Positions 58,906 to 62,375 of a stretch of 64,000 nt of DNA are shown here, piece after piece. The notes beneath the pieces are model-generated. The model saw nothing but the letters and a program-made list of their open reading frames with translations, was not told the origin of the DNA and ran no database searches. The DNA is from Kitasatospora gansuensis (lineage in GTDB: Bacteria > Actinomycetota > Actinomycetes > Streptomycetales > Streptomycetaceae), in NCBI RefSeq assembly GCF_014203705.1, contig NZ_JACHJR010000001.1, positions 4,960,001 to 5,024,000 of the forward strand, written 5' to 3'. Position 1 is the first letter of the stretch. Every line of letters starts with the position of its first letter. The translations under genes and the position numbers were made by a program.

Positions 58906-60195
58906 TCAACGTACCGTCACGAATGCTTCGGCCGAGCGGGCCTGACGTTCCTTCGGTCCCTCCGCCGGCCGCCCCACCGCGATGGCCCCCATCGGGTCCC
59001 AGCCCTCCGGCAGGTCGAGCACGTCGCGCACGGTGTCCCGGCAGAACATCGTGGAGGAGACCCACGCGGAGCCGTAGCCCTCCCCGGTCAGCGTGACCAG
59101 CAGGTTCTGCACGGCGGCGCCGATCGCGACGGTGAACATCTCCCGTTCGGCGGCGGCCCGGCGGGCGTCCGGGTAGTCGTGCGAGCCGTCCATCACCAGG
59201 CAGGGGACCACCAGGTACGGGGCGTCCCGCAGGACGTCGCCCCGGGCGGTGCGGCGGGCCACCTTGGCGTCGTCCCAGCCGTCCAGCTCGCGCAGGTCGC
59301 GCTGCCAGGCGGCGAGCATCGCGTCGAGCAGCCGGGTCCGTACCTCGGGGGTCTCCAGCAGCACGAACCGCCAGGGCGTGGTGTGGTGCGGGGCCGGGGC
59401 GGTGACGGCGGCGGCGACCGCGCGGCGGACGGCGGCCGGGTCGACCGGCTCGGGGGTGAAGGAGCGGATGGTGCGCCGCAGCGTGACGGCCTGACGGAGC
59501 GCCTCGGAGGTGCCGAGCCGGAACATGTCGTCCGCGGCCGGCCGGATCAACGGGCGGATCCCCTCGCCGTCCTCGGCCGTCACCAGCTCACCCAGGCCGC
59601 GGACCACGGCGACCGGTACGCCGCTGGTCTTGCCCTTCACCAGGTCACCGGCGGCGGCCAGTTCGTCGGCGGTGGCGGTGACCGTGAGGGCCAGCTCGTT
59701 GCCGTGGCTGTCCTGACGGCCCCGGTGGTCGTCGAGGACGGCCAGCCCGGCGGCGCCGATCGCCACGTCGGTCAGGCCGTTGCGCCAGGGGCGGCCGAAG
59801 GTGTCGGTGACCAGCACGGCCAGCCGACGGCCGGTCAGCTGCTGGAGCCCGGCCCGCAGGGCGCGCGCCGAGGCGTCGGGGTCGAGCGGCAGCAGCAGGA
59901 CGGTGCCGGGGGCGGTGTTGGAGGCGTCCACGCCCGCCGCCGCCATCACCAGCCCGTTCCGGTTCTCGACGATCCGGGCCGGGCCGCGCCGGGCGACCAC
60001 CCGGACGGTCTCGGCGTCGATCGCCGCCTCCCGGTCGGCGGCCCGCAGCAGCCGGCCCTCGGCCTTGCTGACGATCTTCGAGGTGACCAGCAGGATGTCA
60101 CCGTCCTCGAACGTCCCGGCCTTGGCGATCAGTTCGGCCAGGTCGGCGTCGGCGGTGATCTCCGGCAGTCCCGCCACCGGCAGGACCGAGATCAC
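58906..60195 (-). CDS. fbiB: Coenzyme F420:L-glutamate ligase with C-terminal nitroreductase domain (FbiB)
   Basis: This 429-residue protein is a CofE ligase domain (about residues 1-240: [39 protein letters not shown]) fused to an FMN-binding nitroreductase-like domain (about 245-429: [42 protein letters not shown]). In mycobacterial FbiB the first adds glutamates to F420-0 and the second reduces dehydro-F420. The fusion is typical of actinobacteria. GTG 60195 overlaps the fbiA stop (GTGA), so the two are coupled. Confidence 0.95.
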
Positions 60196-61151
60196 GACCG
60201 GACCTGCTCGGCCAGCTCCAGCGCGGCGCGGGCCATCTCGGCGGTGGCCGGGACGTCGGTCATCAGCAGCGGGATCGCCCGGCAGCTGATCCCGGCGGCC
60301 TCGACCGCGGCCACGGCCTCGGCGTCGGCGGTGTCCACCAGCCACCCGTCGAGCAGTCCGGAGCCGTAGTGCAGCGCCACCGCCTCGGCGGTGGCCTCGA
60401 CGCCGACCGCCGCCAGCACCTTGTCGGCCATGCCGCGCACCGGCGCCCCGCCGATGATCGGGGAGAGCCCGACCACGGGGGCGGCGGCGTCGCTGACGGC
60501 CTGTCGGATGCCGGGGACGGCCAGGATGGTGCCGATGGAGACCACCGGGTTGGACGGCGGGAGCAGGATCACGTCCGCCGCGGCGATCGCCTCCAGCACG
60601 CCGGGGGCGGGCTTGGCGGTCTCGGCGCCGACCGGGACGATCGCCTCGGCGGCCACGGCGGCGTGCAGCTTGACCCAGTACTCCTGGAAGTGCACCACCC
60701 GGGGCCCGGACTCATCGGTGATCTTGACGTGCGTCTCGACCCGGTCGTCGGTCATCGGCAGCAGCCGCACCCCGGGCTGCCAGCGGTCGCAGAGCGCCTC
60801 GGTGACGGCGCTCAGCGGGTAGCCCGCGCCGAGCATCTGGGTCCGCACGATGTGGGTGGCGAAGTCCCGGTCGCCGAGGCCGAACCACTCGGGCCCGACG
60901 CCGTACGCCTTCAGCTCCTCCTTGACCGACCAGGTCTCGTCGGCCCGGCCCCAGCCCTGTTCCTCGTGGATGCCACCGCCGAGGGTGTACATCACGGTGT
61001 CCAGGTCGGGGCAGACCTTGAGACCGAAGAGGTGGATGTCGTCGCCGGTGTTGCCGATGACGGTGATCTCGTCCTGAGGGCCGGTCAGCTCACGGAGTCC
61101 GCGCAGGAAACGCGCTCCACCGATCCCGCCTGCCAGTGCCACGATGCGCAT
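60192..61151 (-). CDS. fbiA: 2-phospho-L-lactate/phosphoenolpyruvyl transferase for F420 (FbiA/CofD)
   Basis: This 319-residue enzyme joins 7,8-didemethyl-8-hydroxy-5-deazariboflavin (Fo) with an activated phosphoenolpyruvyl or lactyl group in F420 synthesis. CofD hallmarks are the N-terminal [37 protein letters not shown], and [17 protein letters not shown] 61151 is the family start. It is the first gene of the fbiA-fbiB operon. F420 serves redox enzymes in secondary metabolism and elsewhere; fbiC and fbiD are not in the window. Confidence 0.96.
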
Positions 61152-61211: not shown

Positions 61212-61811
61212 TCAGTGCGTCTCGACGCGGGCCTCGGGGGCGACCGCGCCGCCGTACTGGTTCATCTCGACCAGGCCGGGGGAGTACAGGTGGATCGAGA
61301 CGGCGGGTTCCAGCGAGGCGTTGACCACCTCGTGCAGGTACCCGGCCGAGAACACCCGCTGGCCGCCCGGGCGGAGCGGGCGGGTGCCCTCACCGGCGTG
61401 CGTGAGGGAGCGCTCGACCAGCTCGCCCTGAAGCACCGTCATCACACCGGAGGACTGGCCGTGGTCGTGGAACCCGCTGCTCTGGCCGGGCAGCCAGCTG
61501 AGCAGCCAGACCTCGTAGCCGGGGCCGGTCTCCAGCCGGGCGTACCAGCGGGTGAGCGCGTCGTAGCGGACCAGCGGCTCCCAGCGGGAGCGGTCGGCCG
61601 CGATCTCGCGGACCAGCTGGGCGTAGCCGGCCACGGTGCTGGGGTGCTGCGGCAGGTCGGTGCGGGCCAGGTGCGGGAAGGCCAGCGGGTCGCCGGCGAT
61701 GGAGACGTCGCTCAGCCCGTCGGTCCACCGGGGGGCCGGTACGGCCACGGTGGCGAGGGCGGAGTGCTTGGCACGGTCTCGGTTGCGCTTGCGGAAGCGG
61801 GGCATTCGCAT
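61212..61811 (-). CDS. Cysteine dioxygenase
   Basis: This 199-residue cupin oxidises cysteine to cysteine sulfinate with non-heme iron. Iron ligands are seen in SGFHDHGQSSGVMTVLQGEL (His pair) and SAGYLHEVVNAS (third His); the SVSIHLYSPGL-like segment is present as AVSIHLYSPGL. An N-terminal Arg/Lys-rich stretch (about 20 residues) precedes the fold. ATG 61811 has GAGG 9 bases upstream; ATG 61805 is an alternative. GAGGATTCCTC around that site is itself palindromic. A Cys-rich leader peptide lies upstream, and the gene is 60 bases from fbiA on the same strand. Confidence 0.92.
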   Translation of the reverse strand: MRMPRFRKRNRDRAKHSALATVAVPAPRWTDGLSDVSIAGDPLAFPHLARTDLPQHPSTVAGYAQLVREIAADRSRWEPLVRYDALTRWYARLETGPGYEVWLLSWLPGQSSGFHDHGQSSGVMTVLQGELVERSLTHAGEGTRPLRPGGQRVFSAGYLHEVVNASLEPAVSIHLYSPGLVEMNQYGGAVAPEARVETH

Positions 61812-61930
61812 GGGAGGAATCCTCGGAGCGGCTGGTCGGCGGGAGATTCAGCCGAACCGCGGGATTCAGGGGGGACTGTCGCGCGGGCGGCCTCGATGTT
61901 CCTGGGCGGCGCGCGGTGGGACGCGAGCGC

Positions 61931-62023
61931 CTAGATACAGGAACAGAGGCGACAACAGAGCGAGCTCGCGGCAGCACCGAGCAGCGCCTGGCGGCGGCTC
62001 CGGGTGATGGCGAACTCTGACAT
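61931..62023 (-). CDS. Cys-rich leader peptide upstream of cysteine dioxygenase
   Basis: A 30-codon frame runs from ATG 62023 to TAG 61931-61933. It begins MSEFAITRSRRQALLG and ends SSLCCRLCSCI, with four Cys codons in the last eight. The Arg-rich middle and Cys-containing end resemble the leader peptides found before sulfur genes in actinobacteria, such as the one at 33561. It lies 119 bases before the dioxygenase ATG. No clear ribosome binding site precedes it, so it may be translated from a nearly leaderless mRNA. Its Cys codons probably sense charged Cys-tRNA. Confidence 0.78.
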   Translation of the reverse strand: MSEFAITRSRRQALLGAAASSLCCRLCSCI

Positions 62024-62107
62024 GCGTGCAAGGAGACCGCACGAGGGGTCCGAGTGTCAAGCCAACTCTGGGACATTCAGGGCAGATCACTCCTGAACTA
62101 CCGGATG

Positions 62108-62123
62108 GGGTGATAAATCACCC
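62108..62123. promoter_or_regulatory. GGGTGAT-AA-ATCACCC palindrome upstream of cysteine dioxygenase
   Basis: This perfect 7-2-7 palindrome lies 85 bases before the leader-peptide ATG and about 250 bases upstream of the whiB promoter. Its form and AT-rich centre are those of a dimeric repressor or activator site. By position it more likely controls the dioxygenase. Confidence 0.5.
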
Positions 62124-62375
62124 TTGATGTTTCGATGTGAAGATCGCCGGGAAGGCAGCCGGTGACCAGGCAACCAGCGCGATCCGTTCCGGCGTCCCCC
62201 CGTTCGGGGGGTGGTCGGGGCGACGGTGTGTCAGGTTGACTGCCTGTCAGGCGGTGGGTGGTTCCGGATGATTGAGGCCCATCAGGGCGGGAAATCCTGG
62301 ATGTCCGGATATGTACACTTATCGTAGTGCCTTGGTTCCGGGGAGTGAATCCTCGGCCCAATACCAGAGCTCGGC

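Follow-up and report, generated by a model that had tools for sequence, protein, structure and literature searches.

A conserved cysteine-rich leader peptide upstream of the cysteine dioxygenase gene in Streptomycetaceae

The gene for cysteine dioxygenase (CDO) in Kitasatospora gansuensis is preceded by a hitherto unannotated leader peptide rich in cysteine. The leader was identified in the window, meaning the whole 64,000-nucleotide stretch analyzed, which belongs to an 8.3 Mb genome of the Kitasatospora/Streptomyces group. It occupies positions 61931 to 62023 of the minus strand, on which all features below lie unless stated otherwise, and comprises 30 codons (MSEFAITRSRRQALLGAAASSLCCRLCSCI*, with CCRLCSCI at the C-terminus) separated from CDO by 119 nt. 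Such a Cys-rich leader before CDO is real, far above chance, and very well conserved: it was recovered in 163 of 168 Streptomycetaceae CDO loci by a uniform scan, compared with 1 of 3,040 control windows. On balance, the leader probably belongs to a cysteine attenuator of the ordinary sign, translational or linked to Rho, which would tie a cysteine-consuming enzyme to the sulfur-assimilation programme.

To pass the scan, a locus needed a TTGAC element followed at leaderless spacing by a start codon, and the resulting ORF had to carry three or more Cys within its final 12 codons. Eighty relatives of the locus were retrieved by name and further loci through family-wide whole-genome searches. The count of 163 of 168 contains a few genomes that entered twice by the two routes, and a few of the loci that failed were CDO paralogs or incomplete. 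The controls were random windows of 800 nt drawn from the same loci. An earlier note on this DNA had placed a Cys-codon-based leader ahead of a cysteine-degrading enzyme and had named a lack of conservation of the frame or its Cys codons among relatives as one finding that would refute it; both were conserved, and the claim is strongly supported by these counts.

In alignment A2, length changes inside the leader were multiples of three, so that the reading frame is preserved, while length changes in the spacer were not. The stop codon was mostly TAG in Kitasatospora and Streptacidiphilus and TGA in Streptomyces, and the number and order of the Cys residues differed between leaders as well. Among 19 diverse leaders, invariance was confined to the start Met and a single Cys, and one Ala was nearly invariant. 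When a profile of these 19 leaders was run against this genome, the CDO leader was the sole strong match (E 1e-9), followed by a match at E 0.02. It was again the sole strong match in each of two Streptomyces genomes, and no other UGU-rich poly-Cys leader occurred among the profile matches in the three genomes. Searching the genome by pattern for further Cys runs lacked the specificity to be of use.

The leader ORF is followed on the minus strand by CDO (61212 to 61811) and then by cofD and fbiB of F420 biosynthesis, while the sporulation gene whiB lies divergently upstream. CDO encodes a type I cysteine dioxygenase of the cupin fold, with matches to Pfam PF05995 (E 1e-19) and to cysteine dioxygenases of the PDB (E 3e-15), by which the family is fixed. 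The frame and its position 119 bases upstream of a cysteine dioxygenase, as given in the earlier note, were confirmed. The RWYARL motif of the enzyme is a plausible source of the Arg that binds the cysteine carboxylate, but its alignment with mammalian CDO is ambiguous, and the substrate is therefore unproven by sequence. The adjoining downstream gene, cofD/fbiA (2-phospho-L-lactate transferase; 60192 to 61151; TIGR01819, E 5e-125), is possibly cotranscribed with CDO. Gene order around CDO was kept among the 76 long loci: all of them had a divergent whiB, and in 71 CDO was followed by cofD. From its position next to whiB, SCO3035 is taken here to be the likely ortholog in Streptomyces coelicolor. 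In that species whiB is SCO3034 (PMC3293853).

Upstream of the leader, a −35 element TTGACA (62055 to 62060), whose TTGAC core is part of the rule that recovered the 163 loci, is followed by the −10-like hexamer TCTCCT (62031 to 62036) of the family T[CG]T[CGT]CT. The two elements were 17-18 nt apart in 161 of 162 loci. Position 5 of the hexamer was C in all 162 loci and position 1 was T in 160 of them; oddly, the usual A at position 2 was missing in every locus. The spacing from promoter to start was conserved, usually with 6-8 nt between the hexamer and the ATG. In 39 loci the first in-frame start was a GTG 1 nt past the hexamer, with the ATG six nt beyond. Since 6-8 nt separate the conserved promoter (TTGACA-N17/18-TNTNCT) from the start of the leader, the transcript is probably leaderless, with the 5′ end at the leader start codon.

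The proposed sensor is the Cys tract TGT TGT CGC CTC TGT TCC TGT (61937 to 61957). Over all loci, the Cys codons of the tails were 582 TGT and 149 TGC (80% UGU), while only 123 of the 1,213 non-Cys codons in the same tails (10%) ended in T. In ordinary genes TGT makes up about 8-10% of Cys codons (12 of 114 and 25 of 321 in nearby genes), and UGU is therefore selected at the Cys codons of the leader specifically. Together with the near-total freedom of the other residues, this bias points to the decoding of Cys codons, rather than to a peptide product, as what counts. In some clades, pairing within the RNA may be part of the reason for the UGU bias.

The leader RNA of the window folded better than shuffled sequence (z −2.5), and the predicted fold contained a hairpin in the 5′ half of the leader, a hairpin from the leader stop codon on (61908 to 61931; GGCGC...GCGCC), and a proposed hairpin enclosing the CDO Shine-Dalgarno sequence (61817 to 61867; GAATCC..CGG..CGGCTG / CAGCCG..CCG.GGATTC). 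All five pairs of the stop-codon hairpin were present in 26 of 26 sequences, with loops of varying length. The Shine-Dalgarno sequence itself, GAGGA (61820 to 61824), was nearly invariant in alignment A2, and its accessibility lay below the mean of shuffled spacers in about 90% of 40 Kitasatospora-group loci. Segment 2 of the spacer (61882 to 61903; AGGAACATCGAGGCCGCCCGCG) is predicted to have two alternative partners, the Cys tract and segment 3, the latter forming part of the Shine-Dalgarno hairpin. In the minimum-energy fold, the Cys tract was paired with the downstream AGGAACATCGAGGC..CGACAG of segment 2. No covariance-model match near a gathering score was obtained with Rfam.

The earlier note had also asked whether an RNA fold is conserved. 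The GAGGCCG of segment 2, which is non-coding, was invariant in 26 of 26 sequences, and the alternative helices kept 83 and 96% of their paired cells, compared with 32-51% when slid. Covariation, however, was weak, both in the Shine-Dalgarno hairpin and in the alternative helices, and a classical 1:2, 2:3, 3:4 layout with Shine-Dalgarno masking in the last place is for this reason put forward as a proposal.

Pairing between the Cys tract and the CDO start differed among clades. In clades other than that of the window, the partner of the Cys tract in alignment folds was the CDO start region or the Shine-Dalgarno sequence itself (GUUGUUCCU:AGGAACAC; UGUCGCUGUUC:GAACAGCGACA). In Streptomyces, contiguous pairing runs of this kind exceeded random DNA at p<0.05 in 36 of 72 loci (two groups). 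General selection for such pairing in Streptomyces was rejected, as duplex energies were not above those of random DNA, and direct pairing of tract and CDO site in the window clade was likewise rejected, with complementarity below that of random DNA.

Stalling on the Cys codons was simulated by masking the stretch covered by the ribosome at a single mask position, and the cost of opening the CDO site was read out. Counting changes of more than 0.5 kcal/mol, this cost fell in 93 of 162 loci and rose in 29. In one Streptomyces clade stalling opened the site in 14 of 14 loci (14 to 0), by about 5.5 kcal/mol, and in two genomes of another family whose leader is MRCCC, the stalled ribosome freed it by about 5-7 kcal/mol. 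Mycobacterium-like CDO leaders gave no consistent sign. The Kitasatospora group, to which the window belongs, was neutral (12 to 14), and equilibrium folding with a moving ribosome left Shine-Dalgarno accessibility in this clade unchanged upon stalling and so carries no information on the sign in this clade. Masking of the CDO ribosome site that a ribosome stalled at the Cys codons would relieve is thus predicted in several clades, though not in that of the window at equilibrium.

Published expression data fall on both sides. In S. coelicolor treated with 0.15 mM H2O2, RNA-seq recorded a 6.5-fold rise of SCO3035 and an 8-fold rise of SCO5772, together with cysN, cysD, cysC, cysH, cysI, cysM, ssu, and met transport genes, in a response dependent on HbpS-SenS-SenR (PMC4991794). 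This co-induction may reflect a shared transcriptional signal, or an increase in cysteine after induction of the synthesis genes. On feather, a diet rich in cysteine, cdo1 of Streptomyces SCUT-3 rose 50-fold and cdo2 8-fold (PMC7181669). The H2O2 data fit a common shortage signal while the feather data fit induction by cysteine, and both concern the genes rather than the leader.

In the favored model, transcription would begin at the leader ATG and the leader would be translated without a Shine-Dalgarno sequence, the UGU-rich Cys tract gauging charged tRNA-Cys. With ample Cys-tRNA, the ribosome would pass and depart, the Cys tract would pair with segment 2, and the free segment 3 would lock the CDO Shine-Dalgarno sequence in its hairpin, which would keep CDO output low, with a possible further contribution from premature Rho-type termination in the C-rich spacer. 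With scarce Cys-tRNA, the ribosome would stall at the UGU codons, segment 2 would pair with segment 3, and the CDO site would open. Because stalling would open the site, the sign would be the ordinary one of amino-acid attenuators, though the enzyme consumes cysteine. Switching on a consumer of cysteine during cysteine shortage is biologically odd and speaks against this sign. A possible reason for such an arrangement is that CDO partners sulfur assimilation, turning thiols into sulfinates and then into sulfite for sulfite reductase, and would not be an overflow valve. The stronger statement, that a cysteine-starvation attenuator of ordinary sign turns on a cysteine-consuming dioxygenase throughout a bacterial family, is advanced tentatively, as a serious possibility that falls somewhat short of probable.

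A variant of ordinary sign, in which output depends mainly on Rho-dependent termination in the spacer instead of Shine-Dalgarno masking, is rather unlikely, although several findings are consistent with it. The spacer was cytosine-rich and G-poor in all clades (C 0.46-0.51, G 0.24-0.29), figures that describe the spacers alone. The published H2O2 response is one at the mRNA level (PMC4991794), and a Rho model has already been proposed for mycobacterial cys leaders (PMC1262725). The low accessibility of the Shine-Dalgarno sequence relative to shuffled spacers in the window clade, however, argues for masking.

A reversed attenuator, as proposed in the earlier note, in which stalling for shortage of Cys-tRNA lowers CDO by refolding or by permitted termination, appears improbable. 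It agrees with the textbook role of the enzyme and with the rise of CDO mRNA in feather-grown Streptomyces (PMC7181669), and the 29 of 162 loci in which simulated stalling raised the cost of opening the CDO site go in its direction; closing was nevertheless dominant in no Streptomycetaceae clade, the folds being neutral or opening upon stalling. Neither of the two routes offered in the note was sustained. The exposed terminator lacks a counterpart, as no intrinsic terminator of the trp type was found on the minus (coding) strand between leader and CDO, and the CDO start that was supposed to be hidden is out of direct reach, lying about 100 nt beyond the edge of a ribosome stalled at the Cys codons. 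Moreover, the Shine-Dalgarno sequence is already masked in the unstalled fold, and the likely ortholog SCO3035 rises together with the cysteine synthesis genes (PMC4991794). The cautious reading of the folding results is that nothing indicates a reversed sign, while some lineages lean toward the ordinary one; taken together, structure and expression leave the reversed reading unsupported.

Substrate-induced arrest like that of TnaC, where high cysteine would halt the ribosome near the leader stop, block Rho, and turn the catabolic gene on, is held to be very unlikely. Arrest peptides require specific residues, but in the 19 leaders little beyond Cys was conserved, and leaders differed in how many Cys they carry, in their order, and in the stop codon; the UGU bias would also be left unexplained. 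In its favor are the precedent of the tna operon for a catabolic enzyme, the C-rich spacer, and the induction on feather (PMC7181669). Sensing of something other than Cys-tRNA, for example through an effect of oxidants or metals on the Cys-rich nascent chain, is likewise very unlikely. In its favor, H2O2 is the published condition under which the ortholog rises within the cys gene set (PMC4991794), but the codon-level UGU bias and the freedom of the other residues indicate decoding.

Two palindromes described in the earlier note were poorly conserved. The palindrome GAGGATTCCTC around the CDO Shine-Dalgarno sequence was present in just 2 of 40 Kitasatospora-group loci. The supposed operator GGGTGATAAATCACCC (62108 to 62123, without assigned strand) retained exact symmetry in 12 of 40 Kitasatospora-group loci and in none elsewhere; it is probably a piece of the whiB-leader intergenic control region, outside the attenuator. 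The surrounding block at 62090-62130 (minus strand GAAAC..GGGTGATTTATCACCCCATCCGGT) was conserved in Kitasatospora relatives, often with the symmetry lost, and probably belongs to the whiB control region.

Cys leaders were also found at other CDO genes. In this genome, the leader MDTGTTLVCRLHVDLRRQASDMCAC (L186:2166-2241, near 1472200) stands at leaderless-type spacing before the second CDO paralog and scores below the NF042934 cut-off; the paralogs of Streptomyces have (V/M)TDTDVRLWRRVHMDLVRYAGCVCRPSC before them, which passes it. NF042934 also covers the sulfite-reductase leader MPSAGTTLVGRLHVDLLRVSSAICPVT of this genome (L185), a relative of MDTGTTLVCRLHVDLRRQASDMCAC, and by sequence the CDO2 leaders are of the kind found before sulfite reductase. 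Other actinobacterial families have Cys leaders before CDO too, among them mycobacterium-like genomes, a family with the leader MRCCC, and two more; in two families that were checked, CDO is followed by a rhodanese-like gene. With such leaders in several lineages, actinobacterial CDO genes look like members of a Cys-leader regulon. In mycobacterium-like genomes (L258-L265, L292), short ORFs ending in ECCR or GCCR with two TGT codons lie 36-66 nt before CDO, and a rhodanese-like gene comes after CDO in both loci that were checked. In L274 and L275 the CDO leader has five codons, MRCCC, and the next bases, CUCCGG, are complementary to the Shine-Dalgarno region CCGGAG. The 'metL' leader published for S. 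lividans metNIQ ends in CMCRRMCAF (PMC8079986). Given this ending and the co-induction of metNIQ with cysteine genes (PMC4991794), it could be a leader for cysteine rather than methionine.

An unannotated conserved regulatory peptide is thereby added to a group that includes model antibiotic producers, and the locus allows a clean test of whether a Cys attenuator keeps its sign ahead of an enzyme destroying the same amino acid. If the ordinary sign is true, the role of bacterial cysteine dioxygenases needs rethinking: the 'catabolic' CDO would act in vivo in sulfur scavenging or in stress chemistry, and the actinobacterial CDO class, with both paralogs and several lineages, would fall within the Cys-leader regulon. 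If the reversed sign is true, the attenuator is of a new design. The UGU-only bias is in either case a natural experiment on wobble decoding within a sensor.

Among known systems, TnaC of the E. coli tryptophanase operon likewise stands before an amino-acid-degrading enzyme, with a possible Rho-type spacer as here, but a conserved arrest sequence of its type was absent from the 19 diverse CDO leaders. NF042934, a cis_reg_atten family of putative leader peptides of sulfite reductase and the second CDO, shares the leaderless-type spacing, the Cys on the C-terminal side, and the sulfur genes; its members have an RxHxDLxR core with 1-4 Cys, whereas the CDO1 leader has no such core. Four CDO1 leaders matched no family at E up to 10, NF042933, NF042934, and NF042936 included, and six CDO leaders of other lineages had no NCBIfam leader match either. 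The candidate cys leaders described for Mycobacterium, Propionibacterium, and Bifidobacterium (Seliverstov et al. 2005, PMC1262725) have Cys runs near the stop and no terminators, as here, but precede cys operons or cbs, and a dioxygenase is unmentioned there.

The closest relatives are the mycobacterial polycysteine leaderless attenuators (Canestrari et al. 2020, doi 10.1111/mmi.14498; NCBIfam Ms4527A, Ms5788A). They are reported to share the short ORF at the presumed 5′ end, the Cys run near the stop, and the downstream cysteine-metabolism gene without an intrinsic terminator, and stalling is reported to unmask the downstream ribosome site, as it would in the model proposed here. The UGU-specific bias measured here and a spacer of some 120 nt that has hairpins of its own set the CDO leader apart. 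Cys codons clustered toward the end of a short ORF, ahead of a cysteine-metabolism gene, were present in the 163 of 168 loci, and the CDO leader is of the same kind as these attenuators, differing in that it has no NCBIfam match and stands before an enzyme that consumes cysteine.
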